Source: Parabacteroides sp. (lineage in GTDB: Bacteria; Bacteroidota; Bacteroidia; Bacteroidales; Tannerellaceae). From it: DNA of 64,000 nt. Shown here piece by piece: positions 17,196 to 57,890 of this stretch. The DNA lies in NCBI GenBank assembly GCA_017937385.1, contig JAGBDR010000010.1, positions 1-64,000 of the forward strand, written 5' to 3'. Every line of letters begins with the position of its first letter. Position 1 is the stretch's first letter. A program made the translations under genes and the position numbers. The notes beneath the pieces were generated by a model. It did no database searches. It had not been told where the DNA came from and saw only the letters and a list, made by a program, of their open reading frames with translations.

Positions 17196-18149
17196 TTAGA
17201 TTTTGAGAAGTTCAATTTCATTTTCAGAAAGACCTGTACTTTGCATGATGATAGCGTTCGGAATACCGGCTTTTTTCATATTTTGGGCGACCTCTCTTAT
17301 TCCCTCTACCTTGCCTTGCTCAATACCTTGTTGTATGCCTTGTTGTATACCTTGTTTTATACCTTGTTTCATGCCTTGTTCAATGCCTTGTCTTATGCCT
17401 TGTTCAATACCTTGTTGCATACCTTTGGCCATGCCTCTTCGTTCAGCACTACCATATAATGTTTTTTCTACACTGATGATGTCCCAAAACTTTTCGTATC
17501 CTGCCAATTGAGCATCGGTAAAAGCGGATTCTTCCAATGCATTCACAGCTTTTTTTAATTCAGGGTTGGCAAGAAATTCAGCTGGAACTTCACGGGTTTG
17601 TTCGTTGATCTCTGTGAGATAACGTAACCAAAGTACTTGCATCTTTTTTTCGCTATAATTGTGGGCTGTGAATTTAGGCAGTTCAACAAAGACCAAATGT
17701 AATCCTTCTATCACTTTTTCAGTATGTTCCACATGTACTAAACGATAGTAATGGTAAAATTCTTGAGGTAAATCTAATTCAAAGATGTCATTTACAAGAT
17801 TGAGTGAATAAACCGGTTGGAGTAATTCGTATTGTTCTCCAATATTCAATTGGCGCACATACGCTTTTGAAGCATTGAACAATACTCTTTGTTTGAATTC
17901 CGGGGACCAGATCATTTGCATCTCCACCAAAAAAAGCCGACCTTGTTTGTCGCGGCAACGTACGTCTACAATGCTATTCTTACGTAAAGGATTGTCTGGC
18001 ACCAACTCCACCGGCAGGTATTCAATGGAGTCTATCTCCTGTCCGGTCTCCAGTGGTAGAAGGGCATTCAGGAAACTCATCACCAGGTCAGGATGTTCAC
18101 CAAACACCCGCTTAAATGTAAGGTCTGCTTTGGGATCTAAATACTTCAT
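17196..18149 (-). CDS. Rpn-family PD-(D/E)XK nuclease / putative transposase with tetrapeptide repeat
   Basis: 317 residues. N-terminus MKYLDPKADLTFKRVFGEHPDLVMSFLNALL is the common opening of the PDDEXK_2 transposase-nuclease group; the active-site Asp and E-x-Q appear in SIVDVRCRDKQGRLFLVEMQ. Residues about 236-280 are a run of four-residue units (QGIE, QGIR, QGMK, QGIK, QGIQ), followed by the small C-terminal domain NAIIMQSTGLSENEIELLKI. It belongs to a different branch from the Rpn gene at 2092. The DNA encoding the tetrapeptides is a 12-bp tandem array likely to vary in copy number without shifting frame. Function unknown. Confidence 0.85.
   Translation of the reverse strand: MKYLDPKADLTFKRVFGEHPDLVMSFLNALLPLETGQEIDSIEYLPVELVPDNPLRKNSIVDVRCRDKQGRLFLVEMQMIWSPEFKQRVLFNASKAYVRQLNIGEQYELLQPVYSLNLVNDIFELDLPQEFYHYYRLVHVEHTEKVIEGLHLVFVELPKFTAHNYSEKKMQVLWLRYLTEINEQTREVPAEFLANPELKKAVNALEESAFTDAQLAGYEKFWDIISVEKTLYGSAERRGMAKGMQQGIEQGIRQGIEQGMKQGIKQGIQQGIQQGIEQGKVEGIREVAQNMKKAGIPNAIIMQSTGLSENEIELLKI
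17313..17430 (-). repeat. 12-bp coding tandem repeat
   Basis: About nine to ten units, plus-strand form CCTTGTTnnATn, each encoding Q-G-(I/M)-x on the minus strand. The degenerate positions fall mainly in the fourth residue and in the third codon base of Gly/Ile. Confidence 0.85.
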
Positions 18150-18244: not shown

Positions 18245-18278
18245 AATTGTTCATTGTCAGTTGTTCATTGTCAATTTC
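18245..18278. repeat. Heptamer-type intergenic repeat upstream of serine acetyltransferase
   Basis: Degenerate units related to TTGTCAA/TTGTTCA (ATTGTTCATTGTCAGTTG and so on) 40-70 bp before the start codon; same family as the perfect arrays at 19294-24529. Confidence 0.55.
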
Positions 18279-18315: not shown

Positions 18316-19215
18316 ATGGGATTGCAAAAGCATAGCAAGGTCTTGAATGATACAGTTGAGATGCTCTCGGACGAGGGTTCTTACCTGCAATTGTTTCATG
18401 CTTACCGTGATGAAGAGGCATTACCTTCGGGCGAAGTGCTGAAAGAGATCATCGATTTGTGCCGGGCCATCCTTTTCCCTGGTTATTACGGGAAAGCCCG
18501 GATCAGCAAACAGACGATCCGTTTTCATACCGGCGTAAATGTCGGGACATTGCATACGTTGCTCTCCAGGCAGATTTACGCAGGGCTTTGTTTTGCTGAT
18601 ACGACATGTGTTTCCTGCCCTGAAGAAAAGAACCTTACCGAGGCGGAGAGACTGTCGGAAGCCTTTATCCGGACGCTGCCCGCAATGCGCAGCCTGTTGG
18701 CGACGGATGCCGAGGCCGCTTTCAACGGCGATCCCGCTGCACAAAACATCAACGAAGTTATTTTCTGTTATCCCGGTTTCCGGGCTGTCTGTAACTATCG
18801 CATTGCGCACCAGCTATACCGGTTGGGTGTTCCTTTTATCCCCCGTATGATTACCGAGATGGCCCATTCTGAGACCGGTATAGACATCCATCCGGGTGCA
18901 GAGATCGGACATCATTTTTCGATCGACCACGGGACGGGAACCGTGATCGGCGAAACCAGTGTGATCGGGAACCATGTCCGTATCTTCCAGGGAGTCAGCT
19001 TGGCAGGAGAAAAACTGCCGCCCGACGAGAATGGGAATGCGATACGCGGTGTGCCGCGCCATCCGGTGTTGGGCGATCATGTGACAGTCTATTCCAATGC
19101 CACATTGTTGGGACGGATCCATGTCGGTGAGGGGGCTACGATTTGCGGTAACGTCTGGGTTACGGAGGATGTGCCGGCGGGAGAGACAGTCAGTCAATTG
19201 ACAATGGATAATTGA
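18316..19215 (+). CDS. cysE: Serine O-acetyltransferase
   Basis: Makes O-acetyl-L-serine from serine and acetyl-CoA, the first step of cysteine synthesis. 299 residues with the N-terminal helical domain (DTVEMLSDEGSYLQLFHAYRDEEALPS...) and the left-handed beta-helix acetyltransferase domain: HSETGIDIHPGAEIGHHFSIDHGTGTVIGETSVIGNHVRIFQGVSLAG, in which the His-Gly turn of the active site (IDHGTG) is clear. It is the longer EpsC-like form common in anaerobes. The C-terminus SQLTMDN is encoded by the flanking 7-bp repeat, so the end of the protein was set by that repeat. Confidence 0.9.
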   Translation: MGLQKHSKVLNDTVEMLSDEGSYLQLFHAYRDEEALPSGEVLKEIIDLCRAILFPGYYGKARISKQTIRFHTGVNVGTLHTLLSRQIYAGLCFADTTCVSCPEEKNLTEAERLSEAFIRTLPAMRSLLATDAEAAFNGDPAAQNINEVIFCYPGFRAVCNYRIAHQLYRLGVPFIPRMITEMAHSETGIDIHPGAEIGHHFSIDHGTGTVIGETSVIGNHVRIFQGVSLAGEKLPPDENGNAIRGVPRHPVLGDHVTVYSNATLLGRIHVGEGATICGNVWVTEDVPAGETVSQLTMDN

Positions 19216-19226
19216 CAATTGACGAT
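19192..19226 (+). repeat. Heptamer repeat, left half (TTGACAA orientation)
   Basis: CAATTGACAATGGATAATTG and further TTGACAA-type units covering the cysE stop codon. Nearly complementary to 19294-19352, with about 70 bp between. Confidence 0.85.
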
Positions 19227-19293
19227 TAAAGAAAGAGATAATTAATAAAGAATATTTATAAACGAACAATGAGACAAACAAGAATACTATTAA

Positions 19294-19352
19294 GTTGTCA
19301 ATTATCTATTGTCAATTGTCAATTGCTTTGTCCGTTGTCAACTGTCAATTGA
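19294..19352 (+). repeat. Heptamer repeat, right half (TTGTCAA orientation)
   Basis: Run of TTGTCAA units, one TTATCTA and some degenerate units (CTTTGTCCG, TTGTCAAC), ending at the start codon of the methyltransferase gene. Complementary to the left half. Confidence 0.85.
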
Positions 19353-19353
19353 A

Positions 19354-20874
19354 ATGAGCGAGACATTTGAAATGGTGGCCAAGACCCTTTACGGGTTGGA
19401 AGAAATTCTGGCCGGCGAGTTATTATCTTTAGGTGCCAACGACATACAGATTGGCCGCCGGATGGTTTCCTTTACCGGAGACAAGGAAGTGCTTTACAAA
19501 GCCAATTTCTATTGCCGTACGGCATTGCGTATCTTGAAACCGATCTATCACTTTAAAGCCAAAGACGCTGATACAGTCTACAAGGAGGTCAAGAAAGTGA
19601 AGTGGGAAAACTACATGTCTTTGGACAAGACATTTGCTATCGACTCTGTCATCTATTCTGAAGATTTCAATCACTCTAAGTTTGTTGCTTATCGTACGAA
19701 GGATGCAATCGTGGATTATTTCATGGAGAAGGAACAGAAACGTCCCTCTGTCCGTGTAAACAATCCGGATCTGTATATCAATATTCATATTTCACATAAC
19801 GACTGTACGCTCTCGATCGACAGTTCGGGTGAGAGCCTGCATAAGCGTGGTTATCGTGTGGATCAGACGGAAGCGCCGTTGAATGAAGTGCTGGCTGCCG
19901 GCATGATCCTGAAAACGGGTTGGAAGGGCGAATCGAATTTTGTTGATCCGATGTGCGGTTCCGGTACGTTGCTGATTGAAGCGGCGATGATTGCTTTGAA
20001 TATCGCTCCGGGCGTGCACCGCAAAGAGTTCGCTTTCGAAAAATGGATCGACTTCGACCAGGAACTGTTTGATCGTATCTATAACGATGACAGCCAGGAA
20101 CGTGAGTTTACTTTCAAGTGTTATGGTGCCGATATCAATCCGGCGGCGATTGAGATTGCAGAGAAAAATATCCGCAGTGCCGGTCTGATGAAATATATCG
20201 AGTTGAAGACCCAGCCGTTCCAACAGTGTACGGAGGCCCCGCAACCGGGTATTTTGGTGACCAATCCTCCATACGGTGAACGTATTTCCAGTCGGGATTT
20301 GTTAGGGCTGTACAACATGATCGGTGAACGCATCAAGCATGTGTTTACAGGTTATAGAGCTTGGATTCTAAGTTATAAGGATGAATGTTTCGACAAAATC
20401 GGACTGAAACCGAGCGAAAAGATCAAGCTTATGAACGGATCGTTGGAATGCGAGTACCGTTGTTATGAGATTTTTGAAGGAAAGATCAAAGACTATAAGA
20501 AAGCGCTGAATGAAGAAGGGGAAGCGCGTCCTCGCCATTCGGAAAAGCTGGCTTTCGAGCGTAAACCGGACCGCCCGGCACGTCCGAATTTCCGTACCGA
20601 CCGCATGGACCGTCCCGAACGCCGTTTTGCGGCTGCACATGCCGAGGACGATAACGAACGGGCCGCTTTTATCCCCGGCAAACGTTATTTTGGTGATGAA
20701 CGGGCAGACGGCCGTCCGACACGCAAGGATTTTGGCGGCAAACGTCCTGTCAAGAGACACTTTAAGGAGGATGAGGATTTTGGCGGCAAGCGGAAATTCG
20801 GTGATAAGAAGTTTGGCGACCGTTCATTCAAGAAATCATATAAAAGAAGGGGAAGAGATGAATTTGAAGACTAA
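19354..20874 (+). CDS. THUMP-domain rRNA methyltransferase (RlmL/RlmK type)
   Basis: 506-residue SAM-dependent RNA methyltransferase. Residues about 1-160 form the THUMP-type RNA-binding part (FEMVAKTLYGLEEILAGELLSLGA opening); residues about 165-380 the Rossmann methyltransferase with VDPMCGSGTLLIEAA (SAM loop), YGADINPAAIEIAEKN and the catalytic TNPPYGER. This group makes N2-methylguanine in 23S rRNA. The last ~110 residues are a low-complexity Arg/Lys/Gly-rich tail (FGGKR, KRKFGDKKFGD units), probably an RNA-binding extension. Start set at ATG 19354; the open frame upstream is only repeat-encoded (MSIVNC...). Its 3' end overlaps the next gene by 17 bp. Confidence 0.9.
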   Translation: MSETFEMVAKTLYGLEEILAGELLSLGANDIQIGRRMVSFTGDKEVLYKANFYCRTALRILKPIYHFKAKDADTVYKEVKKVKWENYMSLDKTFAIDSVIYSEDFNHSKFVAYRTKDAIVDYFMEKEQKRPSVRVNNPDLYINIHISHNDCTLSIDSSGESLHKRGYRVDQTEAPLNEVLAAGMILKTGWKGESNFVDPMCGSGTLLIEAAMIALNIAPGVHRKEFAFEKWIDFDQELFDRIYNDDSQEREFTFKCYGADINPAAIEIAEKNIRSAGLMKYIELKTQPFQQCTEAPQPGILVTNPPYGERISSRDLLGLYNMIGERIKHVFTGYRAWILSYKDECFDKIGLKPSEKIKLMNGSLECEYRCYEIFEGKIKDYKKALNEEGEARPRHSEKLAFERKPDRPARPNFRTDRMDRPERRFAAAHAEDDNERAAFIPGKRYFGDERADGRPTRKDFGGKRPVKRHFKEDEDFGGKRKFGDKKFGDRSFKKSYKRRGRDEFED

Positions 20875-23059
20875 TGTATTCGCAGTATTCTGTGCCGTGG
20901 CACTTCTAAATCCGTTGTCAATGATGGGACAAGACAAACAGTTCACGTTACATGACCTGATTCCCGGAGGGAAGACGCAGCGCCGCTTTGTGCCCCGCAA
21001 CCTGAAACAGTTGCAGTGGTGCGGAGATACCTATCTGTATGTCAAGGGCGACAGCATGATGAGTGGAGAATCGACAAAGGCGGAAAAAGTGGCTTTCACC
21101 CGCCAGCAATTGAATGAAGCACTTGCGGAAGCTGGTGCACAGACGGTTGGGACGATGCCTTTCTTCTCCGTCCCTGATGGTGCGAAGCCGGTATTGTCAT
21201 TCTATGCCAAACAGCATTATTTCCATTATAATTTTGCGGAAAACAAGATTGTAAACACGTATAACCTGAATGATTCCTGGAGCGATTTCGACTTTTGTCC
21301 TGCCAACGGCTATTGGGCTTTTACAGAGGGCAACAATTTGAAGATCATTTCTCCCGACAACAAGGTCAGCGCCGTTACGAACGAAACGGGCAAAGACATT
21401 GTCTGCGGGAAATCGGTCCATCAGAACGAGTTTGGGATCCATAAAGGGACATTCTGGTCGCCGAATGGTTCGGCGCTGGCTTTCTACCGGATGGATGAAA
21501 GCATGGTGACGGATTATCCGTTTGTCGATATCACTGCCCGAACAGCAAAGGCAGAGCCGCACAAATACCCGATGGCGGGTATGAAGAGCCACGAGGTGAC
21601 AGTCGGTGTCTACAACTTGGCAACCGGTAAAACCATCTGGCTGAAAACCGGATTGCCGAAAGAAAAGTATCTGACGAATGTGGCCTGGAGTCCGGATGAA
21701 AAAAGCATTTATATTGCCGAATTGAACCGGGACCAAAATGAGATGCACTTGGTACGCTACTCGGCTTTGACGGGCGAAAAAGAGGCGGATTTGTTCACTG
21801 AAAAGAACGAACAGTATGTAGAACCGCAACATCCGGTCCTTTTCCTTCCGGACAACCCGGACCAGTTTATCTGGCAGAGCCGGCGCGACGGGTATAACCA
21901 TTTGTATCTATATAACACGAAAGGCGAACTGTTGAAACAGTTGACGGAAGGCAAATGGGAAGTCCTGAATGTCCTCGGTTTCGACGCCAAAGGAAAGGCG
22001 TTGTTCTTCTCTTCTACGAAACCGTCGAAACTTAGCCCGCTTGATTATGGCGATGCTTTGTATGTCGGGACATCGCGTCTGGACCTGAAAAAAGGAACCT
22101 CTTACGAACTGACTTCCGGCGGTTTGCAGGGCGTACATGCCACGCAACTGAGCGCGTCCGGCAAATACTTGATCGACACTTATTCCGCCCCTGACGTTCC
22201 CCGTGAGATCTCGGTTATCGACGGTCAGAAACGGGAAACCTTGCGGACATTACTGACGGCGAAAGACCCGTACGAGGGATATGCGATGCCGGAAATCGTG
22301 ACCGGAACAATCCGGGCGGCAGATGGCGTCACCCCTTTGAATTTCCGCCTGGTCAAACCGGTCGGCCTGGATGAGACGAAGAAATATCCGACGATCGTCT
22401 ATGTGTATGGTGGCCCGCACGCCCAGTTGGTAACAGGCGGCTGGAAAAACGGCGTAGGTGGTTGGGATATCTATATGGCCCAGCGCGGATATGTGGTCTT
22501 TACGCTTGACAGCCGGGGATCGGCGAACCGCGGGCAGGCTTTCGAAAATGTCATACACCGCAATTTAGGGGTGAATGAGATGGCAGACCAAGTGAAAGGG
22601 GTCGAATATCTGAAATCCCTCCCGTATGTCGATGCCGCCCGTATCGGCGTACACGGATGGAGCTACGGCGGTTTTATGACCACCAATCTGATGTGTTCTT
22701 ATCCGGAGATCTTCAAGGTCGGGGTTGCCGGTGGACCGGTGATCGACTGGAGCAACTATGAGATTATGTATGGCGAACGCTATATGGACCGTCCGCAGGA
22801 TAATCCGGAGGGTTATAAGAATGCCAACTTGAAACTGAAAGCGGGAAACCTGAAAGGGCACCTGCTGTTGATCCACGGCGATATCGATCCGGTTGTGGTC
22901 TGGCAGCACAGCTTGGGATTCCTGAAAGCCTGTGTGGATGCGGACACCTATCCCGATTATTTCGTCTATCCCCGCCATTTGCATAATGTGATCGGCAAAG
23001 ACCGCCCGCATCTCTATGAGAAGATAACACGGTATTTCGACGACAACCTTAAGAATTGA
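20858..23059 (+). CDS. Dipeptidyl peptidase IV (S9 family)
   Basis: 733-residue secreted serine peptidase that removes X-Pro (or X-Ala) dipeptides. Signal peptide MNLKTNVFAVFCAVALLNPLSMMGQ. N-terminal beta-propeller (about 30-480) and C-terminal alpha/beta-hydrolase: nucleophile in HGWSYGGFMT near residue 603, catalytic Asp in HGDIDPVV near 676, His in PRHLHNV near 709. YVYGGPHAQLV is also typical. Length agrees with bacterial DPP IV (about 720-740). Start at 20858 because the signal peptide begins there; the frame is open further back only inside the preceding gene. Overlap of 17 bp implies coupled translation with the methyltransferase gene. Confidence 0.93.
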   Translation: MNLKTNVFAVFCAVALLNPLSMMGQDKQFTLHDLIPGGKTQRRFVPRNLKQLQWCGDTYLYVKGDSMMSGESTKAEKVAFTRQQLNEALAEAGAQTVGTMPFFSVPDGAKPVLSFYAKQHYFHYNFAENKIVNTYNLNDSWSDFDFCPANGYWAFTEGNNLKIISPDNKVSAVTNETGKDIVCGKSVHQNEFGIHKGTFWSPNGSALAFYRMDESMVTDYPFVDITARTAKAEPHKYPMAGMKSHEVTVGVYNLATGKTIWLKTGLPKEKYLTNVAWSPDEKSIYIAELNRDQNEMHLVRYSALTGEKEADLFTEKNEQYVEPQHPVLFLPDNPDQFIWQSRRDGYNHLYLYNTKGELLKQLTEGKWEVLNVLGFDAKGKALFFSSTKPSKLSPLDYGDALYVGTSRLDLKKGTSYELTSGGLQGVHATQLSASGKYLIDTYSAPDVPREISVIDGQKRETLRTLLTAKDPYEGYAMPEIVTGTIRAADGVTPLNFRLVKPVGLDETKKYPTIVYVYGGPHAQLVTGGWKNGVGGWDIYMAQRGYVVFTLDSRGSANRGQAFENVIHRNLGVNEMADQVKGVEYLKSLPYVDAARIGVHGWSYGGFMTTNLMCSYPEIFKVGVAGGPVIDWSNYEIMYGERYMDRPQDNPEGYKNANLKLKAGNLKGHLLLIHGDIDPVVVWQHSLGFLKACVDADTYPDYFVYPRHLHNVIGKDRPHLYEKITRYFDDNLKN

Positions 23060-23071
23060 CAATTGACAATT
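23054..23071 (+). repeat. Heptamer repeat, left half
   Basis: AATTGACAATTGACAATTA-type run at the stop codon of the DPP IV gene; the first TTGACAA unit carries the stop (TGA at 23057-23059). Confidence 0.85.
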
Positions 23072-23138
23072 ATAAAAAGAACAGAAGAAGAATAGTAACC
23101 ATTAAAAAGAAAGATAATTGAGAATCGGCAACGGCAAG

Positions 23139-23171
23139 CAATTGTCAATTGTCAATTGTCAATTGTCAATT
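23139..23171 (+). repeat. Heptamer repeat, right half
   Basis: Four perfect tandem CAATTGT units ending 8 bp before the purD start codon; complementary to the left half at 23054. Confidence 0.9.
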
Positions 23172-23178
23172 AAAAAAG

Positions 23179-24450
23179 ATGAACATATTATTACTTGGCT
23201 CAGGCGGCCGCGAACATGCAATAGCCTGGAAGATTGCTCAAAGCCCGAAAGTGGACCAGTTATTCATTGCTCCCGGTAATGCTGGTACCGCATGGGTGGG
23301 AACGAATGTAAATATCAAAGCGGACGATTTCCCTGCCATCAAGGAATTTGCGTTGGCGAACCGGATCAATATGATCGTGGTAGGACCGGAAGATCCGTTG
23401 GTGAAGGGTGTGTACGACTATTTCAAGAATGATCCCGCCCTGGCAGGTATCCCGGTGATCGGCCCTTCGAAAGAGGGTGCGCAATTGGAGGGTAGCAAGG
23501 ATTTTGCGAAAGCGTTCATGATGCGCCACAACATCCCGACCGCCCGTTACAAGAGCATCTCTGCCGAAAATCTGGAAGAAGGATATGCGTTTCTTGAAGA
23601 ATTGCAGGCTCCTTATGTATTGAAAGCCGACGGCTTGGCAGCCGGCAAAGGCGTGCTGATCCTCGACACACTCGAAGAGGCGAAGAAAGAGCTGGGCGAT
23701 ATGCTGGGCGGTATGTTCGGCGATGCCAGCAAGACGGTCGTGATCGAAGAATTCCTGGACGGTATCGAATGTTCCGTCTTCGTGATGACGGATGGTGAAA
23801 GCTACAAGGTACTTCCGGTGGCGAAAGACTACAAGCGCATCGGCGAGGGCAATACAGGCTTGAATACAGGTGGCATGGGGGCTGTGTCTCCGGTTCCTTT
23901 TGCCGACGAAGTGTTCATGCAGAAGGTGGACGAACGCATCATCCGTCCGACGATCGAAGGGCTGAAAGCGGAACGTCTCGACTATAAAGGCTTCATCTTC
24001 CTCGGCTTGATCAACGTGAAGGGCGAGCCGATGGTGATCGAATATAATTGTCGCATGGGAGACCCCGAAACGGAAGTGGTCATGCTGCGTATCCAGAGTG
24101 ACCTGGTTGACCTGTTGGAAGGGGTTGCCGAAGGAAATCTGGGCAGCCGCACACTGGCGCATGATCCGCGTGCTGCCGTAACGGTCATGCTGGTAAGCGG
24201 CGGTTATCCGGAGGCGTATGAAAAGGGAAAGGTGATCAGCGGTTTGGACCAGGTCCCTGCCGAAAACATCGTTTTCCATGCCGGGACAAAAGCTGCCGAC
24301 GGACAAATCCTGACCAACGGTGGCCGTGTCATTGCTGTCAGTTCTTACGGAGCCGACAAGGAAGAGGCGCTCGCCCGCTCGTTCGCCGGTGCCAAACTCA
24401 TCGATTTTGAAAAGAAATATTTCCGTAGCGATATTGGATTTGACCTCTAA
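23179..24450 (+). CDS. purD: Phosphoribosylamine-glycine ligase
   Basis: ATP-grasp enzyme of purine synthesis joining phosphoribosylamine and glycine. 423 residues, normal length. Seen: [23 protein letters not shown]-domain, [14 protein letters not shown]-grasp region with [15 protein letters not shown] near residue 150 and [10 protein letters not shown] near 230, and the metal-binding [15 protein letters not shown] near 290. Start at ATG 23179 matches the conserved N-terminus; the open frame before it is repeat-encoded. Confidence 0.97.
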
Positions 24451-24451
24451 A

Positions 24452-24485
24452 TAATTGACAATGGATAATTGACAATGGACAATTC
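24452..24485 (+). repeat. Heptamer repeat, left half
   Basis: TTGACAA/TGGATAA/TGGACAA units directly behind the purD stop codon. Confidence 0.85.
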
Positions 24486-24488
24486 AAG

Positions 24489-24529
24489 ATTGTCGATTGT
24501 CGATTGTCAATTGTCAATTGTCAATTGAC
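24489..24529 (+). repeat. Heptamer repeat, right half
   Basis: TTGTCGA units passing into perfect TTGTCAA units that run up to the ATG at 24530. With the left half only a few bases away it can form a long hairpin with a short loop. Confidence 0.88.
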
Positions 24530-25531
24530 ATGTACAAGCATTCCCGTCAATTCGATTTTTCCGCGCCGCCGACTTTCGTGCCGGTCCTGTTGGCGTGCAT
24601 CCTCTGTTGGGTGGTCAGTTATTTGTACTCCGTGGGCTATCCGGTCTATGGCGAGGTTTCGGCTACTCCACTCTGGAATACGATTTGCCAGGCGTTGCCC
24701 GGGAAAGAGTTTACCTATGTCATCGGGATGGCCCTGATGTTTGGGGGCGCTTTCCTGTTGCACCGTGCGAACTATGTGCTCGTACTGATACGGGAAAGAA
24801 CGTTGTTGCCTTTCCTCTTTTACGTCCTGTTTATCAGTACGAATCCCGATTTCTTCCCTCTGAAGTCTACTTCGGTCGGTGTTTTCTGCCTGATTCTGGC
24901 GATTTACCAGTTGTTTACGACCTATCATGACCCCGAAGCGCGGGAGAAAGCCTACGGTGCAGCCTTGCTGATCGGCATCGGCAGTTTGCTTTGGGTCCAT
25001 TTGCTTTGGTTTCTGCCGCTGTTCTGGTTGGGAATGTATAATTTCCGTTCGCTGACACCCCGCACCTTTGCCGCCTCATTGTTGGGCGTGGCGACGGTCT
25101 ATTGGTTCCTGTTGGGATGGTGTGTGTGGCAGCGGGATTTCACGTTGTTCAGCGTCCCTTTTTCTACCCTCTTCAAAGTGCGTTTTTTGGCGACGGATGG
25201 CATTGTGCTGCAAGATTGGATCAGCATCCTGGCGATTGCCCTGTTGACGGTTGTCGCTTCCTTGAATATCGCCTTGCACGATACGGAGGATTCGCTTCGT
25301 TCCCGCCAGTTCCTCGCGTTCCTGATCGCGATGTCCGTATGGGCATTCAGCCTGTATTTCTTCTATGAACAGGTTTCGGAAGAGTTTTTGGAAACGGCTT
25401 GCGTGCCGGCCTCTATCCTGATTGCCCATTTCTTTACGGTGACGCGGGGTAAGATCGTGTTCTGGTCGTTTTTTGTAACGGTGGTGATCCTGATTGTCAC
25501 ATTATTCATTCGTATATGGAGTTTCTTATAG
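24530..25531 (+). CDS. Multi-pass inner-membrane protein of unknown function
   Basis: 333 residues, start MYKHSRQFDFSAPPTFVPVL set at 24530 because upstream sequence is repeat. About eight to nine hydrophobic helices are visible (VLLACILCWVVSYLYSVGY, YVIGMALMFGGAFLLHRA, LLPFLFYVLFIS, VGVFCLILAIYQLF, GAALLIGIGSLLWVHLLWFLP, ASLLGVATVYWFLLGW, ISILAIALLTVVASLNI, FLAFLIAMSVWAFSLYFFY, and a C-terminal one). No motif I recognise. Orthologous-looking genes sit behind purD in other Bacteroidales as far as I recall. Overlaps the next gene by 16 bp. Confidence 0.75.
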   Translation: MYKHSRQFDFSAPPTFVPVLLACILCWVVSYLYSVGYPVYGEVSATPLWNTICQALPGKEFTYVIGMALMFGGAFLLHRANYVLVLIRERTLLPFLFYVLFISTNPDFFPLKSTSVGVFCLILAIYQLFTTYHDPEAREKAYGAALLIGIGSLLWVHLLWFLPLFWLGMYNFRSLTPRTFAASLLGVATVYWFLLGWCVWQRDFTLFSVPFSTLFKVRFLATDGIVLQDWISILAIALLTVVASLNIALHDTEDSLRSRQFLAFLIAMSVWAFSLYFFYEQVSEEFLETACVPASILIAHFFTVTRGKIVFWSFFVTVVILIVTLFIRIWSFL

Positions 25532-51672: not shown

Positions 51673-52527
51673 ATGAAATCTTTCCTCCTCCTCTTCCTCT
51701 TTCTCTCTTTTCCGCTGATGGCTCAGTCCGGAGAGGAGGAAACGCCTCGTTCGGTCAATGAGAGCACGTTGGTCGGGTTGGGGCGTTATAACCTGCGGGA
51801 TACGTATCTTTCGCCCAGTACGGACATCCGTTATACGGGCTGGGTAGTGCAGGTCCTCAATGAGCGGATGAAGATCGTGCGGTTGGCAGACTATCATGTG
51901 TCCCGCCAACAGCTGATCCATGTGGAGTTCGGTTCGACCCGTAACGGTGCGGGGACGGCGAACGAATATGCCGGATTCGTAGATTACAGTTTGGGCTATC
52001 ATTACCGTTTTCCGCAGGTACAACCCGGATTGAAAGTCTTGACCGGTGCTTCCGCCCGTCTTTCCGGCGGTTTTATTTATAATACGCGAAACAGCAACAA
52101 CCCGGTTTCCGGCAAGGCGGACTTCGACCTGAATCTGTCGGCCATGGCGATTTATCATTTCACGGTTGAGGGATTCCCGCTTACCCTCCGCTATCAGGCG
52201 GAGATACCGTTTGCCGGCGTACTCTTCTCGGTACATAAAGGCGAACCGTATTATTTCCTGACACAAGGCAGCAAGGAAGGACTTGTGCGGTTCAGTTCGT
52301 TCCATAACAAGTTTGCCATGAGAAACTATTTCACGCTTGATGTGCCGGTATCTGCCTTTACCATCCGTATCGGTTATCTGAACAGCATGTACCGTACGGA
52401 TGTGAACCGTATCAAGACACATGTCCTCTCCAATTCGTTCATGATCGGATTTGTGAAAGAGTTTGTCTCTTTCGGCGGCAAGCGTCTGAAGAAAGAGGGG
52501 CAAGGGTATAGAAGTGCGTACTACTGA
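51673..52527 (+). CDS. DUF3316 outer-membrane-like protein
   Basis: 284 residues with signal peptide MKSFLLLFLFLSFPLMAQS. Alternating hydrophobic strands (FAGFVDYSLGYHYRF-like, ARLSGGFIYNT, FPLTLRYQAEIPFAGV, VPVSAFTIRIGYLNSMYRT) suggest a small beta-barrel; the pattern matches DUF3316 as I remember it. Starts 3 bp behind parC, so it is probably co-transcribed. Function unknown. Confidence 0.75.
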   Translation: MKSFLLLFLFLSFPLMAQSGEEETPRSVNESTLVGLGRYNLRDTYLSPSTDIRYTGWVVQVLNERMKIVRLADYHVSRQQLIHVEFGSTRNGAGTANEYAGFVDYSLGYHYRFPQVQPGLKVLTGASARLSGGFIYNTRNSNNPVSGKADFDLNLSAMAIYHFTVEGFPLTLRYQAEIPFAGVLFSVHKGEPYYFLTQGSKEGLVRFSSFHNKFAMRNYFTLDVPVSAFTIRIGYLNSMYRTDVNRIKTHVLSNSFMIGFVKEFVSFGGKRLKKEGQGYRSAYY

Positions 52528-52528
52528 T

Positions 52529-52563
52529 AACTCACAATTCATAATTTATAATTCATAACTCAT
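52529..52563 (+). repeat. Heptamer repeat of AATTCAT type over the S41 start codon
   Basis: Five consecutive 7-bp units: AACTCAC, AATTCAT, AATTTAT, AATTCAT, AACTCAT. The last one supplies the AT of the ATG at 52562. Different sequence from the TTGACAA repeats but the same period. Confidence 0.8.
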
Positions 52564-53680
52564 GAAACCTTTCCTCTTTTCCCTCTGTCTGTTCTTTTTC
52601 TTCGGTTGCGAGAAAGCGACAGAGTATAACTCGTCTCCCCGTGATAACTTTGAGGCGCTTTGGCGTATCATGGATGAGAATTACTGTTTCTTTACCTTTA
52701 AGGACATTGACTGGGATGATGTGCACGACCGGTATGATTTGCTTGTGAGCGACACGATGAACCAGTATGAATTGTTTGACATCCTGGGTAAAATGCTTGC
52801 CGAGGTGAAAGACGGGCATACCAACTTGATCTCATCTTTCGATATGTCCCGTTACTGGACCTGGTATGAAGCGTATCCGGCTAACTTCTATAAAGAAATA
52901 CAGGACCGTTATCTCGGTACGGACTATAAGATTGCCGGAGGAATGAAGTACAAGCGTTTGGCGGACGATAAGATCGGGTATGTCTATTACGGCAGCTTTT
53001 CAAGCGGCGTGGGTGAAAACAACCTGGATTATGTGTTCGCGCATTTCAAGGATTGCAAGGGATTGATATTCGACGTGCGCGACAATGGAGGCGGCTCCTT
53101 GCTCTATTCCGACCGCATCGCTTCGCGGTTTCTGGAAGAAAGGATTCTGACCGGTTACACGCAATATAAGAAAGGGAACGGGCATGACGATTTCACCGAA
53201 CCGAATCCGGTCTATCTTTCCCCGTCGGACCGTATCCCTTGGTTGCGCCCGGTCATTGTCTTGACCAACCGCCATTCCTACAGTGCGACAAACGATTTTG
53301 TCAATGTGATGCGTCTTCTTCCGCAAGTCACGATCATGGGCGACCGTACGGGAGGTGGCAGCGGTCTGCCTTTCAGCTCGGAATTGCCGAACGGATGGAG
53401 TGTCCGCTTCTCGGCCTGTCCGGTTCTGGATGTGAACAAACAACATACGGAGTTCGGCATTGATCCGGATATTGCGGTAGCCATGACAGAGGAGGATATC
53501 TTGAAAGGGCGCGACACGATTCTGGAGGCGGCGATCGAACAATTGCTCGCAAAAAGCGATTCGGCAGAAGCGGAATCCTTCATGGTGGGTATCAACCCGG
53601 ATGCCGGCATCCGAGTCGCTTTGCAAAAAGAACCGGATGAGCCATACGGCAAGAAAAATCCAAACAGTCTTATCGAATAG
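52562..53680 (+). CDS. S41-family peptidase lipoprotein
   Basis: 372 residues; lipoprotein signal MKPFLFSLCLFFFFGC. C-terminal-processing-protease-like fold: tricorn-core helices at 25-80 (FEALWRIMDENYCFF), LAEVKDGHTNLI, then the catalytic domain with YVYYGSF, FDVRDNGGGSLLYSD and the nucleophile in VLTNRHSYSATNDFV near residue 240, followed by GDRTGGGSGLPF. No PDZ insertion is obvious, so it is a short S41 form. Likely anchored to the outer or inner membrane and acting in the envelope. Confidence 0.9.
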   Translation: MKPFLFSLCLFFFFGCEKATEYNSSPRDNFEALWRIMDENYCFFTFKDIDWDDVHDRYDLLVSDTMNQYELFDILGKMLAEVKDGHTNLISSFDMSRYWTWYEAYPANFYKEIQDRYLGTDYKIAGGMKYKRLADDKIGYVYYGSFSSGVGENNLDYVFAHFKDCKGLIFDVRDNGGGSLLYSDRIASRFLEERILTGYTQYKKGNGHDDFTEPNPVYLSPSDRIPWLRPVIVLTNRHSYSATNDFVNVMRLLPQVTIMGDRTGGGSGLPFSSELPNGWSVRFSACPVLDVNKQHTEFGIDPDIAVAMTEEDILKGRDTILEAAIEQLLAKSDSAEAESFMVGINPDAGIRVALQKEPDEPYGKKNPNSLIE

Positions 53681-53728
53681 TCCGGCATTTATGAATGATT
53701 TATTACTTTTGCACCTAAAATTATTTTA

Positions 53729-54460
53729 ATGAGTTACAATTGGAGTACACGCACGGAACTTTTGTTAGGAACTGATCGGATGGAACGGCTGGCGCATAGT
53801 CATGTGCTGGTAGTTGGATTGGGAGGTGTGGGTGCGTATGCCGCCGAACAGATCTGTCGGGCCGGGATCGGGCACATGACGATCGTCGATGCCGATACGG
53901 TCAACGAAAGCAACATCAACCGCCAATTGCCGGCGTTGCATTCGACGTTAGGTATGCCGAAAGCCGAAGTCGTAGCTCGTCGTCTGTTGGATATCAATCC
54001 CCATTTGAAACTACACGTTTTGAACGAGTTCTTGCGTGACGAGCGGACGGAAGAGGTGCTTTCGGCGAACCGGTATGATTTTATTGTGGATGCGATCGAT
54101 TCCCTCAGCCCGAAAGTATTCCTGTTATATCACGCTTATAAGAAAAACATTCCTGTCGTTTCCTCGATGGGAGCCGGTGCCAAGATGGACCCGTCACAGG
54201 TCAGGATCGCGGATATATCGAAGACTTGCAACTGCGGCTTGGCGAAAGCCGTGCGCAAACGGTTGCGCGGATTGGGCGTAAACAAAGGAATTCCGGTTGT
54301 CTTCTCTACGGAGATTGCCAATCCGGATGCCGTCATAGAGGTGGAGGATGAACTGTGCAAGCGGACAACGACCGGAACCGTTTCCTATATGCCGGCGATA
54401 TTCGGGTGTTACTTGGCTTCATTTGTGATTCGGCAATTGACTTTTACAATGGACAATTGA
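53729..54460 (+). CDS. tcdA: tRNA threonylcarbamoyladenosine dehydratase
   Basis: E1-like enzyme that converts t6A37 of tRNA to its cyclic form. 243 residues. ATP-binding VLVVGLGGVGAYAAEQICRAGIG near 28-50, DADTVNESNINRQLPAL, and FIVDAIDSLSPKVFLL with the catalytic-site surroundings; later VVSSMGAGAKMDPSQ and the Cys-containing KTCNCGLAKAVRKRLRG, as in CsdL/TcdA proteins. Its last residues TFTMDN are encoded by the 7-bp repeat behind it. Confidence 0.92.
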   Translation: MSYNWSTRTELLLGTDRMERLAHSHVLVVGLGGVGAYAAEQICRAGIGHMTIVDADTVNESNINRQLPALHSTLGMPKAEVVARRLLDINPHLKLHVLNEFLRDERTEEVLSANRYDFIVDAIDSLSPKVFLLYHAYKKNIPVVSSMGAGAKMDPSQVRIADISKTCNCGLAKAVRKRLRGLGVNKGIPVVFSTEIANPDAVIEVEDELCKRTTTGTVSYMPAIFGCYLASFVIRQLTFTMDN

Positions 54461-54480
54461 TAATTGACAATTGACAATTA
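54434..54480 (+). repeat. Heptamer repeat at the tcdA stop codon
   Basis: TTGACTTTTACAATGGACAA then TTGATAA, TTGACAA, TTGACAA units; they encode the end of TcdA and stop it. No right-hand complement precedes the next gene, 10 bp further. Confidence 0.8.
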
Positions 54481-54489
54481 AAAGATGTA

Positions 54490-55155
54490 ATGATACAAAC
54501 AGAAGGAATAACCAAAAGCTTCGGTTCCTTGCAAGTGTTGAAAGGAATCGACCTGACGATCGGGGAGGGCGAGATCGTGGCGATTGTCGGCCCGAGCGGG
54601 GCTGGGAAAACGACTCTGCTTCAGATCCTCGGGACACTCGATGCGCCGGACAGTGGCAAACTTTATATAAACGGGACTGAAACCGTCCGCCTTTCGGAAG
54701 AAAAATTGGCGGCGTTCCGCAATCGGAATATCGGTTTCGTCTTCCAGTTCCATCAGCTTCTTCCGGAGTTTACGGCTTTGGAGAATGTGATGATTCCGGC
54801 CCTGATTGCTCGTGAAAAGCCAGCGGTGGCGGAGAAAAGAGCGAAAGAGATCCTCGACTTCATGAATTTGGCTGACCGGATGTCCCACAAGCCGGCCGAG
54901 TTGTCGGGCGGGGAGAAACAGCGCGTAGCGGTTGCCCGCGCCCTCATCAACAATCCGTCGGTCATCCTGGCAGACGAGCCGTCGGGAAGCCTGGACACTC
55001 AAAATAAGGAGGAACTGCATAAGCTTTTCTTCGACCTGCGTGACCAGATGCACCAGACATTCGTAATCGTCACGCACGACGAGCAGCTGGCAACCGATAC
55101 GGACCGCGTGATTCATATCAAGGACGGAATGGTTCAATTGACAATGGACCATTGA
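54490..55155 (+). CDS. LolD-type ABC transporter ATP-binding protein
   Basis: 221-residue ATPase. Walker [10 protein letters not shown] (residues 34-42), Q-loop [18 protein letters not shown], signature [15 protein letters not shown] (137-151), Walker [14 protein letters not shown] (157-169), switch His in VTHDEQLA. The MacB/LolD subgroup powers FtsX-like permeases; none is adjacent here, although an orphan permease lies at 5443. Its C-terminal VQLTMDH is repeat-encoded. Confidence 0.9.
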
Positions 55156-55193
55156 CAAGGAACAATTATTTTTTAATTCTTAATTTTTAATTC
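55134..55193 (+). repeat. Heptamer repeats (TTGACAA then TTAATTC type)
   Basis: CAATTGACAATGGACCATTG and one more TTGACAA unit end the ATPase gene; then 55173-55193 are three 7-bp units TTAATTC, TTAATTT, TTAATTC just before the next start codon. Confidence 0.75.
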
Positions 55194-55199
55194 AAAAGA

Positions 55200-56567
55200 A
55201 TGACAGACAACAGAGTAACCTTTGGCAGCAAATTAGGGGTAATTCTGGCAACTGTGGGATGTGCCGTCGGCCTGGGGAATATATGGCGTTTTCCGTATAT
55301 GGTCGGAGTCAACGGAGGGGCAGCTTTCCTGCTCGTCTATATCATCTGCATCCTGCTGCTCGGAATCCCCGTGATGATTACTGAATTTTTCATCGGGCGT
55401 CATTCCCGCAAGAATGCCGCCGGTGCCTTCAAGAAGATGGCACCGGGAACGAAATGGTCGTTTATCGGCTACAACGGAGTGTTGGGCGCATTCCTGATAT
55501 TGGGTTTCTATTCGGTTGTGGCAGGCTGGACGCTCGAATACCTTGTGCAAGGATTGGATGGTTCGCTGGCTGGAAAAACGGCGGACGAGTTTAAAATGGA
55601 TTTCGAACAGTTCTCTTCCGGTATCGTGCGTCCGATAGGCTGGACGGCGGCGTTTATTGCCTTGACACACCTGATCATCATCTCCGGTGTAAAAGCGGGT
55701 ATCGAACGGGCTTCCAAGATCATGATGCCGCTGTTGTTCCTGATCCTGGTCGTCCTGTGTCTCCGGTCGGTCACGTTGCCGGATGCCGGGGAAGGGCTGG
55801 TGTTCCTATTCAAGCCCGACTTCAGCAAGATCACCTCTTCCGTCGTACTCAGTGCGATGGGGCAGGCTTTCTTTTCGCTCAGCATCGGAATGGGATGCCT
55901 GATTACCTATTCGTCCTATTTCAAGAAAGAGACGAAACTGCAGGCGACGGCCTTGCAGGTCACGGTTCTGGACACGCTGGTAGCTGTCCTGGCAGGTGTC
56001 ATGATATTTCCGGCGGTGTTCAGTTTCGGTATTGCTCCGACTGCCGGTCCTGAGCTGGTGTTCATCACGTTGCCGAATGTTTTTGAGCAATTGCCGTTCG
56101 CCCGGATTTGGTCTACAGGCTTTTTCCTGTTGTTGGCTCTGGCGGCTTTGACTTCTACGATCTCGCTCCATGAGGTGTCGACGGCATACGTGCACGAAGA
56201 GTATAACCTTTCGCGTCAGAAGGCCGCTTGGTTTGTTTCGGGTGGCGTACTGATATTGGGTGTCCTCAGTTCGCTCTCGTTCGGGGTGCTGAAGGAATTC
56301 ACGATCGGCGGATTGAATTTCTTCGACGCGCTGGATTATCTGACGGCCAAGATCATGCTTCCTCTGGGCGGTATGCTGATCTGCATCTTCGTCGGGACAC
56401 GTGTCGACCGCAAGGTGTTGAAAGCCGAACTGACCAACGAGGGGACGATTCCGTTCCATTTTTTCAACACGTATGCTTTCTTCATGAAATACATCGCTCC
56501 TTTCGCCATCGGGTTGATTTTCCTGAACGAATTGGGCCTGATCAACAAGCTTTCAAGGCTATTTTAA
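55200..56567 (+). CDS. Sodium-dependent transporter (NSS family)
   Basis: 455-residue member of the neurotransmitter:sodium symporter (LeuT-like) family. N-terminal ATVGCAVGLGNIWRFPYMVGVNGGAAFLLVY is the sodium/substrate-binding first helix; then ITEFFIGRHSRKNA, the long helices up to about 12, FFSLSIGMGCLITYSSYFKKE near residue 230 (unwound helix 6) and ALAALTSTISLHEVSTAY (helix 8, sodium site). Probably imports an amino acid. Ends with the terminator/promoter hairpin. Confidence 0.92.
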   Translation: MTDNRVTFGSKLGVILATVGCAVGLGNIWRFPYMVGVNGGAAFLLVYIICILLLGIPVMITEFFIGRHSRKNAAGAFKKMAPGTKWSFIGYNGVLGAFLILGFYSVVAGWTLEYLVQGLDGSLAGKTADEFKMDFEQFSSGIVRPIGWTAAFIALTHLIIISGVKAGIERASKIMMPLLFLILVVLCLRSVTLPDAGEGLVFLFKPDFSKITSSVVLSAMGQAFFSLSIGMGCLITYSSYFKKETKLQATALQVTVLDTLVAVLAGVMIFPAVFSFGIAPTAGPELVFITLPNVFEQLPFARIWSTGFFLLLALAALTSTISLHEVSTAYVHEEYNLSRQKAAWFVSGGVLILGVLSSLSFGVLKEFTIGGLNFFDALDYLTAKIMLPLGGMLICIFVGTRVDRKVLKAELTNEGTIPFHFFNTYAFFMKYIAPFAIGLIFLNELGLINKLSRLF

Positions 56568-57140: not shown

Positions 57141-57890
57141 ATGAACTGGCGCGACCTTCTCTATTTCTCCAAAGGCGAACGGAGAGCACTGACTCTGCTC
57201 CTTGGCCTCATCACCGTTTCCTGGATACTATTGCTTTGGACAGGCGAAAAACGGATGCCCATCGATTCGCAAACGGATGCCCATCGGATGGAAAACCGAT
57301 GGGCATCGGACGAAAAACGGATCGGCACCGGAAAAGACACCTTCGAAAGGAGAACAGATTCTCTCCGGAAAGTCCCTGTCCCGCCTCCCTCCGGAAAGGA
57401 AAGCCGGTTTAAAAGCCGCACCTCCAATTTTACAGGAAAGAAACGGAAAGGACAGAGCTCCTATATCCGGGCGGAAAAGTACGCGCCGGGCACCCTCGTC
57501 GAGCTCAACACTGCCGACACGACGACCCTGAAGAAAGTCCCCGGTATCGGCAGTACCTTCGCCCGGCGGATCGTGAAATACCGGGAACTTTTAGGTGGTT
57601 TCTATGATGTCAGCCAGTTGGCGGAAGTGTACGGGATCGACGAGGAGCGTTACCAGACTCTCGTTCCCTGGTTCACGGCCGACACACTCCACATACGCCG
57701 GTTGGCTGTCAACACCCTGCCTGCCTCTGCTCTTCGCAAGCATCCTTACCTCAACTACCGGCAGGCGAAGGCGATCGAACAGCTCCGAAAACAAAAAAGC
57801 AGGCTCTCCGGGTGGGAGAACCTGCACTTGTTAGAAGAATTTACAGATACGGACAAGAAACGGCTCATGCCTTATTTGTCCTTTCAGTAG
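57141..57890 (+). CDS. Helix-hairpin-helix (ComEA-like) membrane-anchored protein
   Basis: 249 residues: cytoplasmic head, one membrane helix (ALTLLLGLITVSWILLLW, residues 16-33), a basic, repeat-containing linker (35-110), then two helix-hairpin-helix motifs: VELNTADTTTLKKVPGIGSTFARRIVKYRELLGGF (119-153) and a second at about 195-245 (HPYLNYRQAKAIEQLRKQKSRLSG). DNA-uptake proteins of the ComEA group bind double-stranded DNA with the same module; this protein could do so, but that is inference. The linker DNA contains palindromic sequence (57252-57307). Confidence 0.82.
   Translation: MNWRDLLYFSKGERRALTLLLGLITVSWILLLWTGEKRMPIDSQTDAHRMENRWASDEKRIGTGKDTFERRTDSLRKVPVPPPSGKESRFKSRTSNFTGKKRKGQSSYIRAEKYAPGTLVELNTADTTTLKKVPGIGSTFARRIVKYRELLGGFYDVSQLAEVYGIDEERYQTLVPWFTADTLHIRRLAVNTLPASALRKHPYLNYRQAKAIEQLRKQKSRLSGWENLHLLEEFTDTDKKRLMPYLSFQ
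57252..57307 (+). repeat. Direct and inverted repeat inside the HhH gene
   Basis: CGGATGCCCATCG occurs at 57252-57264 and 57274-57286; GATGCCCATCGG (57276-57287) is perfectly complementary to CCGATGGGCATC (57296-57307). All are in frame and code for the basic linker. Confidence 0.8.

Follow-up and report, generated by a model that had tools for sequence, protein, structure and literature searches.

Paired arrays of seven-base-pair units with fixed polarity at gene borders and inside conserved genes of Parabacteroides

The Window and Its Heptamer Arrays

The stretch of DNA analysed here, referred to as the window, covers 64,000 nucleotides of a Parabacteroides sp. genome (GenBank assembly GCA_017937385.1, contig JAGBDR010000010.1, positions 1 to 64,000) and contains tandem arrays of 7-bp units at the borders of several genes. 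The arrays are best described as two tandem 7-bp arms, an AATTGAC-like arm (F) on the left and its reverse complement, an AATTGTC-like arm (R), on the right, both as read on the + strand, which should be able to pair as a predicted hairpin. The genome holding the window (G000) measures 3.73 Mb in 128 contigs and is 90.5% complete; in the named collection its purD is matched most closely by Parabacteroides (P. massiliensis, P. acidifaciens and others), and in a tree built on the PurD, CarB and MurC of 30 genomes it is sister to G020, G012 and G013.

Three F-R pairs are present in the window, all annotated on the + strand. In the first, the F arm (24452-24484) follows the purD stop and is separated by a 1-bp spacer from the R arm (24486-24527), which ends 2 bp before the next ATG at 24530. 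In the second, the F arm (23053-23071) starts in the last codon and TGA stop of a DPPIV/S9 peptidase gene ending at 23059, and the R arm (23139-23171) ends 7 bp before the purD ATG at 23179. The F arm of the third pair (19195-19227) encodes the C-terminal SQLTMDN and the stop of a hexapeptide-transferase gene (18316-19215), and its R arm (19298-19351) ends 2 bp before a THUMP/RlmL-like methyltransferase gene (19354-20874). In armless relatives the match to the hexapeptide transferase mostly ends at residue 294 of 299, with L054 (298) and L057 (299) as exceptions. An R-type array of period 14/7 (18245-18276, +) also lies between the divergent genes 17196-18149 (-) and 18316-19215 (+).

Four further arrays, named in an initial annotation of positions 52,529 to 55,193, are all in place, again on the + strand. 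The first, a lone R-type arm of AATTCAT/AATTTAT units (52536-52563), sits between a DUF3316 gene (51673-52527) and an S41 peptidase gene (52562-53680), reaches two bases into the ATG of the latter at 52562 and forms no hairpin (z +0.7); the AATTCAT family occurs as an F and R pair in the relative G008 (L300, 11082/11121). The second, a lone F-type arm of AATTGAC, AATGGAC and AATTGAT units (54434-54480) with a weak fold (z -1.8), encodes the C-terminal QLTFTMDN and the TGA stop of a ThiF-family gene (53729-54460). The third, a lone and degenerate F-type arm of AATTGAC and AATGGAC types (55134-55160), encodes the QLTMDH C-terminus and the stop of an ABC-transporter ATPase gene (54490-55155). It is followed by an R-type TTAATTC arm (AATTCTT/AATTTTT; 55166-55193) before an SNF-family transporter gene (55200-56567), whose ATG begins 6 bp after the end of the TTAATTC/TTAATTT stretch at 55173-55193; the two arms form no significant hairpin (z -0.07). 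Lone arms thus obey the polarity of the pairs, with F types after stops and R types before starts. At the gathering score the only Rfam match in the window is a tRNA at 1397-1467; the arrays match no known structured RNA, and an identity with a known Rfam RNA was rejected.

Period 7 as the Dominant Period

The enrichment of period 7 over other periods, on which the initial annotation relied, is borne out both in the window and beyond it. Five strict period-7 runs are found in the window and none at any other period from 2 to 11; single runs occur at periods 12, 21, 22 and 24 and two at 14, and the number of period-7 runs expected from 10 order-3 Markov simulations is 0.0. AATT pairs are found 19 times at a spacing of 7 bp and 15 times at 14 bp, with at most six at any other spacing up to 40, and AATTNNNAATT occurs 19 times versus 3.6 expected, a number reached in 0 of 100 shuffles. 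A 450-kb sample of G000, composed of the window and 20 further stretches, holds 47 period-7 runs, as opposed to 2, 2, 3 and 3 for periods 5, 6, 8 and 9; the remaining periods up to 20 give 0 to 7 runs, except for the harmonic 14 (43), and period 22 gives 16. All 20 added stretches sit on contigs already known to hold AATTNNNAATTNNNAATT matches, and the period-7 density of this sample is therefore inflated. The agreement nevertheless extends to 80 loci of named records (1.45 Mb) picked only for holding purD, where period 7 ranks first with 28 of 95 noncoding runs, followed by periods 22 (11), 14 and 21 (8 each); runs explicable by a shorter period were left out of this table and kept in that of the 450-kb sample.

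The runs are not equally frequent inside genes. Indeed, 32 of the 47 are mostly noncoding and 15 mostly coding, noncoding sequence being about 8.5% of the sample. Gene calls are the longest open reading frames (ORFs), which sum to 91.5% of the sample, and the 15 mostly coding runs include overlaps with ORF ends and false ORFs; the coding score of the relevant side or ORF is negative in L017, L008 9600 and L020.

Genome-wide, AATTNNNAATTNNNAATT has 256 copies in G000 versus 6 for a reversed-pattern control, and its count ranges from 1 to 210 across 34 relatives of the genus. G008, with a count of 195, holds F-R pairs of two families within 120 kb; in 120 kb of G005, whose count is 1, period-7 runs are absent whatever the unit, and the idea that poor genomes merely use another unit was rejected on this basis. 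G050 reaches a count of 588 with no period-7 run in 65 kb, in a sample of 27% GC, and pattern counts alone can therefore mislead. This genome is also what speaks for chance, or the AT-rich composition of gene borders, as the source of the arrays; however, the window has a GC content of 47%, and the control count, the comparison of periods and the shuffles led us to reject such an origin, whose probability we regard as negligible.

Tandem repeats of other periods were also noticed. Repeats of approximately 22 bp, a period read by eye, fill the purD-upstream junction in L046, L048 and L050 (G019, G024 and G026), where G000 has heptamer arms, and 12/36-bp and 22-bp repeats occur within listed ORFs of the window at 17323-17425 and 57245-57332. 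Arrays of 8 bp, of the AGTCAAGG / CTCGTCAA type, are present upstream of purD in L030 (G007) and in L095, L103 and L127; those of L030 are inverted arms, and arrays of this type are a possible period-8 relative of the heptamers.

Units, Polarity and Stop Codons

The arrays had been taken for three unrelated unit sequences. Read in one direction, however, their units differ by one or two bases: the common ones form, in the R direction, a chain of single-base steps (AATTGTC, AATTCTC, AATTCTT, AATTCAT, AAATCAT), and 7 of the 61 sampled arrays used for pairing and orientation hold two words of this chain in one register. Examples are L006 1099-1139, with two AATTCAT and then two AAATCAT, and L009 16740-16774, with AATTGTC and AATTCTT. 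Overall, the units present are AATTGAC, GATTTAT, AATTCAT and AATTCTT with their variants, and TAACTGA is not the unit.

At the thresholds used, 34 of the 61 arrays form 17 detected pairs and 27 are lone; the F arms of the window pairs 19195/19298 and 23053/23139 fall below the run threshold, hence these pairs are outside the 17. In all 17 detected pairs F is on the left and R on the right, whatever the strands of the genes, as seven lie between two + genes, four between two - genes, two between -+ genes and four are scored inside genes, one of which (L017, a doubtful ORF) is probably upstream of the true start. Both arms belong to one family in 15 of the 17. Spacers range from 1 to 112 bp, and the 12 of at least 17 bp (10 from detected pairs and two from window pairs, excluding six shorter spacers and the doubtful L017 pair) have no mutual match at E 0.01; visual inspection of 14 pairs, short of a formal test, showed no flanking duplication. 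Units of the GG type are about equally common in the two arms, accounting for 15/60 in intergenic F arms (AATGGAC, AATGGAT, AATGGAG) and 14/63 in intergenic R arms (all AATGGAC). Thus, F and R arms draw on a shared unit pool, and AATGGAC as an adaptation to coding sequence only was rejected.

One dominant period, units related by single-base steps with mixed arrays, and a polarity fixed in 17 of 17 pairs support a common generating process, which was one of the two options of the initial annotation. The other was a common selection, and period 7 was said to place a stop in every frame. The F arms at 19195-19227 and 24452-24484 behave in this way, and so do three of the named arrays; the fourth, 55134-55160, has stops in only two frames. 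The unit of the AATTGTC-type R arms, a class that accounts for 22 of the 61 sampled arrays, is stop-free, and all frames are open in the three such arms tested in the window (19298-19351, 23139-23171, 24486-24522); stops do occur in R-type arms built of other units (52536, 55173). In addition, F arms inside genes avoid stops, and 5 of the 16 intergenic F cores scored leave a frame open. As the AATTGTC arms that precede starts are free of stops, stop insurance is not the general function of the arrays; we rejected it and consider it very improbable.

Arrays in Frame inside Genes

That the arrays are always at gene borders holds in part: they are concentrated there, but 8 of the 61 sampled arrays lie within ORFs with coding signal on both sides. 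Seven of these, in four genes, are of the heptamer families, and NCBIfam and Pfam identify the genes as CarB, CarA, MurC and an AcrB-family RND pump; a search of G000 with the CarB insert added MetH, CysN and CoaD. The CarA arms are located past the CPSase domain (10-144) and ahead of the amidotransferase domain (216-390), the CarB insert falls in the oligomerisation domain at a gap in the human enzyme, and the MetH insert follows the pterin-binding domain (231-469) and precedes the B12-binding cap (532-604). The insert of CoaD may extend the protein at its N-terminus or, alternatively, provide the start codon, a TTG within the R arm. Predicted stems are strong for the CarB (-35.0 kcal/mol, z -6.1 versus shuffles) and RND (-46.4 kcal/mol, z -5.8) inserts. 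Among the units of F arms within genes is AATGGAC, which does not interrupt the reading frame. As a separate observation, both strands are open across the region of the MetH insert in L252: the coding-strand frame spans the whole locus (1033 aa), and the opposite one runs for 725 aa.

The Same Sites in Related Genomes

Orthologues of CarA, CarB, MurC and the RND pump were compared, for each gene in the 30 best-matching loci among 38 genomes, a set biased toward carriers, with the presence of arms judged by eye. Arms are present at CarB in 6 of 30 loci, five with AATTGAC units and one (G025) with AGTTGAC/ACTGTCC; the loci without arms have linkers of 36 or 48 nt, or longer unrelated ones in L148 and L157. 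At the RND pump 7 of 30 loci have arms, one of them (G059) the F arm only, and the units are of AATTGAC types in G000 and G006, GGTGAAA/TTTCAAC in G013, G020 and G059, AGTTGAC/GGTCAAC in G025 and AATTGAA in G016. G015 is without the RND palindrome of its close relative G016 and retains one unit, AATTGAAAA, like a footprint; the site looks like an in-frame deletion that left one unit behind. MurC carries an R arm only, in 5 of 30 loci (AATTGTC in G000, G059 and G020; TTTCAAC in G012 and G013), with a possible two-unit remnant in L227. MurC and RND loci without arms have other, mostly shorter linkers.

At CarA the two arms occupy two loops about 110 bp apart and, in G000 and many relatives, flank the conserved stretch DYGSINYVDRVSCKEII. 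Unit classes and clades were likewise assigned by eye: among the 30 loci, five have AATTGAC units (three with one weak arm), four GTTGAAA/TTTCAAC, three AATTGAG/AATTCTC, three AATGAAG/CTTCATT, one AGTTGAC and one a 9-bp palindrome, and 13 are without arms. Wherever both arms are clear, one unit class is found in both loops. The segment between the arms is ancestral coding sequence. Of the 24 permutations of four unit classes, the true F-R pairing ranks first; for seven clades, 88 of 5040 arrangements do as well in terms of energies, and a phylogeny-blind test on 15 arm-bearing loci gives a mean of -28.4 for matched and -22.3 for mismatched arms. G020, G012 and G013, together with G059, carry another CarA unit on both arms; G000 thus differs from its sisters in unit at CarA and, where present, at the RND pump, whereas the sites are common. 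As G000 is sister to carriers of the other unit, the simplest history of CarA is a switch of both arms in G000. The 9-bp palindrome, found in the carA linker of L218 (G003), is in frame (GACGCGGAT), and its inverted copy includes the unique flank GACGCAAAAGATATTTTG, which suggests that it arose by fold-back copying.

A similar situation is present at the 19215/19354 junction of the window, where lineages carry AATTGAC, AATTGAT, AGTTGAC or GATTTAT arms on both sides. For five lineages chosen by eye, 4 of 120 arrangements are as good as the true one; L051, L052, L053 and L055 were excluded from this test, being of the same class as G000 or having one weak arm. The junction keeps its arms in L051, L052, L055, L058, L062, L088 and L120, and the R arm before the RlmL-like gene recurs at the same position in these and in L063, over Parabacteroides and Tannerellaceae records and, with a different unit, one Bacteroides metagenome-assembled genome. 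This R arm is a candidate for regulatory use. Upstream of purD, the junction measures 122-134 bp with arms in G000, G012 and G020, and 17-24 bp in G059, G031, G022, G015, G016, G025 and G001, with a different hairpin or the 22-bp repeats in other relatives.

These comparisons bear on the possibility that the arrays are palindromic cassettes inserted whole by a mobilising enzyme, in the manner of Rickettsia palindromic elements (RPEs) or miniature inverted-repeat transposable elements (MITEs), some of them in frame. The fixed polarity of 17 of 17 pairs would fit, pattern counts vary widely within the genus (1 to 256), and RPEs (PMC10969869, PMC2229807) offer a parallel to the in-frame inserts found in conserved metabolic enzymes. 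However, the 12 spacers are without mutual similarity and the CarA spacer is ancestral, and for these two reasons the cassette model fails even though the polarity would suit it; no flanking duplication is visible by eye in the 14 pairs inspected. Among transposases only the Y1 family was searched, and no Y1/RAYT transposase was found in G000 or in the rich genomes G004, G006, G008, G012 and G013. We therefore see whole-cassette insertion as possible but rather unlikely. A RAYT/REP system was rejected, as Y1_Tnp occurs in 8 of the 38 genomes (among them the rich G020 and G024 and several poor ones) and does not track abundance. CGCAGA-rich palindromes were separately seen at both purD junctions of L023 (G013) and downstream of purD in L025 (G059); the two copies in L023, with ends GTGTGTCAAAT or GTGTGTCAGAT and TTTGACACACCC, look like a MITE family.

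The arms may instead be RNA stems kept by selection, either for translational coupling, in which upstream translation opens the stem and frees the next start, or for protection or termination of the transcript. Predicted stems are strong at two of the F-R junctions of the window (24446-24532, -38.8 kcal/mol, z -7.6 versus shuffles; 23050-23176, -32.8 kcal/mol, z -7.9). The geometry is also suitable, as F arms of the window contain the stops at 19215, 23059, 54460 and 55155 and the R arms ending at 19351, 23171, 24527 and 55193 stop 2-7 bp short of starts, and both the co-variation at CarA and 19215/19354 and the retention of the latter junction in several relatives would be expected. On the other hand, two of the 17 pairs lie between divergent genes and four inside genes (one in a doubtful ORF), where coupling makes no sense, relatives often have about 15-50 bp without arms at the same junctions, and G005 does without any period-7 run in the 120 kb sampled. 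As a general account of the arrays, selected stems are in our opinion unlikely.

A Proposed Origin of the Arrays

The period, the polarity, the matching of arms, the tolerance in frame, and the presence or absence of arrays and change of units at fixed sites are observed. To explain them we favour, with a confidence that is evenly balanced, a single lineage of heptamer inverted arrays that are expanded by slippage, kept complementary by template switching and tolerated at gene edges and in protein loops. Arms would lengthen and homogenise through replication slippage in 7-bp steps; while one strand is single they would fold, and template switching would copy changes from arm to arm, so that a new unit could spread to both arms even if the loop between them is unrelated. 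Units would drift base by base with period and polarity persisting, which we propose as the reason why several 'different' units of one period coexist in one genome. Arrays would be retained at places that tolerate a hairpin or a short peptide, as at stop and start codons, protein linkers and surface loops, and would be purged where harmful, with the AATGGAC variant allowing F arms to lie within genes without closing the frame. The four named arms and other lone ones would be pairs that lost or never gained a partner. We propose that the arrays are mainly neutral or selfish, with occasional effects on mRNA.

Parts of this mechanism have precedents, in the portions of the reports cited. Template switching is described to build and repair inverted repeats, also in coding DNA (PMC8794818, PMC8604942), and over-representation of heptamers in bacterial genomes, together with a proposal of polymerase slippage, is reported in PMC4692102, which cites an earlier survey.

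Several results weigh against the slippage and template-switching reading. Template switching predicts mirror images, but in the pairs compared by eye the two arms do not carry their variant units in mirrored order, and mirror-image copying was not seen; furthermore, template switching alone gives no reason for the F-R polarity or for the absence of R-F pairs. The co-variation statistics are modest, clades being few and set by eye: after normalisation for composition, 281 of 5040 arrangements of the seven CarA clades do as well as the true one, and the arms of L193 and L194 pair no better than with those of other species (ranks 14 and 15 of 29). The stretches holding lone arms (54430-54489, 52520-52564 and 55130-55199) fold insignificantly, with the z scores given above. 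Finally, the relatedness of the four main units is matched by 412 of 20,000 random AT-rich sets of four; 4236 of 20,000 sets are as connected if AATT is imposed on every unit, and 7312 of 20,000 are linked once either strand and steps of up to two bases are allowed. Since the relatedness of units is by itself only moderately unusual, it is the mixed arrays that carry the argument for kinship.

A trans-acting, templated process akin to telomere synthesis, which would rewrite both arms together with a new 7-bp word and a fixed polarity at DNA ends or hairpins, even within an enzyme gene and with ancestral sequence between the arms, was also considered. No enzyme for it was found, with Y1 transposase and SbcD as the only ones sought, and we hold it to be improbable. 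Loss of the palindrome nuclease SbcD as the cause of the arrays was rejected, as 30 of the 38 genomes have a match over the cut-off, including G000 and the rich G004, G006, G008, G012, G013 and G020; the rich G024 has no SbcD match, and SbcD does not follow array abundance.

Whichever process is at work, a single genus offers a comparative series with the same sites, period and polarity, different units and related species without arrays, and slippage, template switching, transposition and selection on RNA can therefore be separated by comparison of strains. Short repeats that enter conserved metabolic enzymes in frame at linkers are also a source of protein length variation, and annotation pipelines will read such inserts as lineage-specific loops, C-terminal tails (QLTMDN) or shifts of start codons.

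Relation to Known Repeat Systems

Tandem 7-bp intergenic repeats are also represented by the cyanobacterial STRR heptanucleotide repeats, likened here by description only, and to our knowledge there is no accepted explanation for the number seven in bacterial heptamer repeats. Heptamer repeats, three-frame stops, occasional occurrence in ORFs, some convergent pairs, in-frame palindromes and homogenisation of arms by template switching are already published. In the open-licence literature we found no report of heptamer arms that are paired in Parabacteroides or of units that switch within conserved enzymes, and exact 19-letter array strings gave no match there.

The closest parallel is the TAACTGA direct repeats of Beggiatoaceae, Cyanobacteria and some Bacteroidetes (MacGregor 2015, PMC4679880). 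They share with the Parabacteroides arrays AT-rich 7-bp tandem units at gene borders with stops in three frames on one strand, a property already published for them, an open peptide on the other strand (LSVISYQ, close to LSIVNCQ), some sets overlapping or inside ORFs, and an abundance that depends on the lineage; their indels are mostly in 7-nt steps. TAACTGA repeats mostly run in one direction, directly ahead of starts and with the stop-containing side toward them, apart from one inverted case; they have one main unit, related heptamers being rare, and their in-ORF sets are mostly at protein ends. In contrast, Parabacteroides has paired inverted arms, starts mostly preceded by the stop-free orientation, several coexisting and switching units, and mid-protein sites in conserved metabolic enzymes.

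The GGGAATC-type repeats of Xanthomonas and GGGGA(C/T)T of Nostoc are likewise intergenic heptamer arrays, sometimes in convergent pairs and with large length variation between related species, and three heptanucleotides are reported in Calothrix (PMC4692102). However, the Xanthomonas and Nostoc repeats are G-rich quadruplex formers, and in-frame pairs with co-varying units are not among the features given in the part of that source used here.

Finally, the arrays can be set beside palindromes kept in coding sequence. RPEs and coding MITEs are palindromes of about 100-150 bp, intergenic and in frame in conserved genes, in the excerpts considered (PMC10969869, PMC2229807). The Parabacteroides arrays have in common with them a long inverted repeat predicted to fold (z -5.8 to -7.9 in four two-arm stretches) and in-frame sites in conserved genes (CarA, CarB, MurC, the RND pump, MetH and CysN). 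RPEs are, according to the same excerpts, sequence families with a body of their own, whereas the Parabacteroides copies share only their 7-bp arms and the CarA spacer is host sequence. Inverted repeats are similarly kept inside coding sequence in the mitochondria of Nematomorpha (PMC6649704), and hairpins made by template switching (PMC8794818) exemplify a mutational route that both makes and repairs inverted repeats; in the passages drawn upon, these cases concern animal mitochondria and RNA genes and tandem heptamers are not described, so that the Parabacteroides arrays share with them the inverted repeat and differ from them in its 7-bp tandem build.

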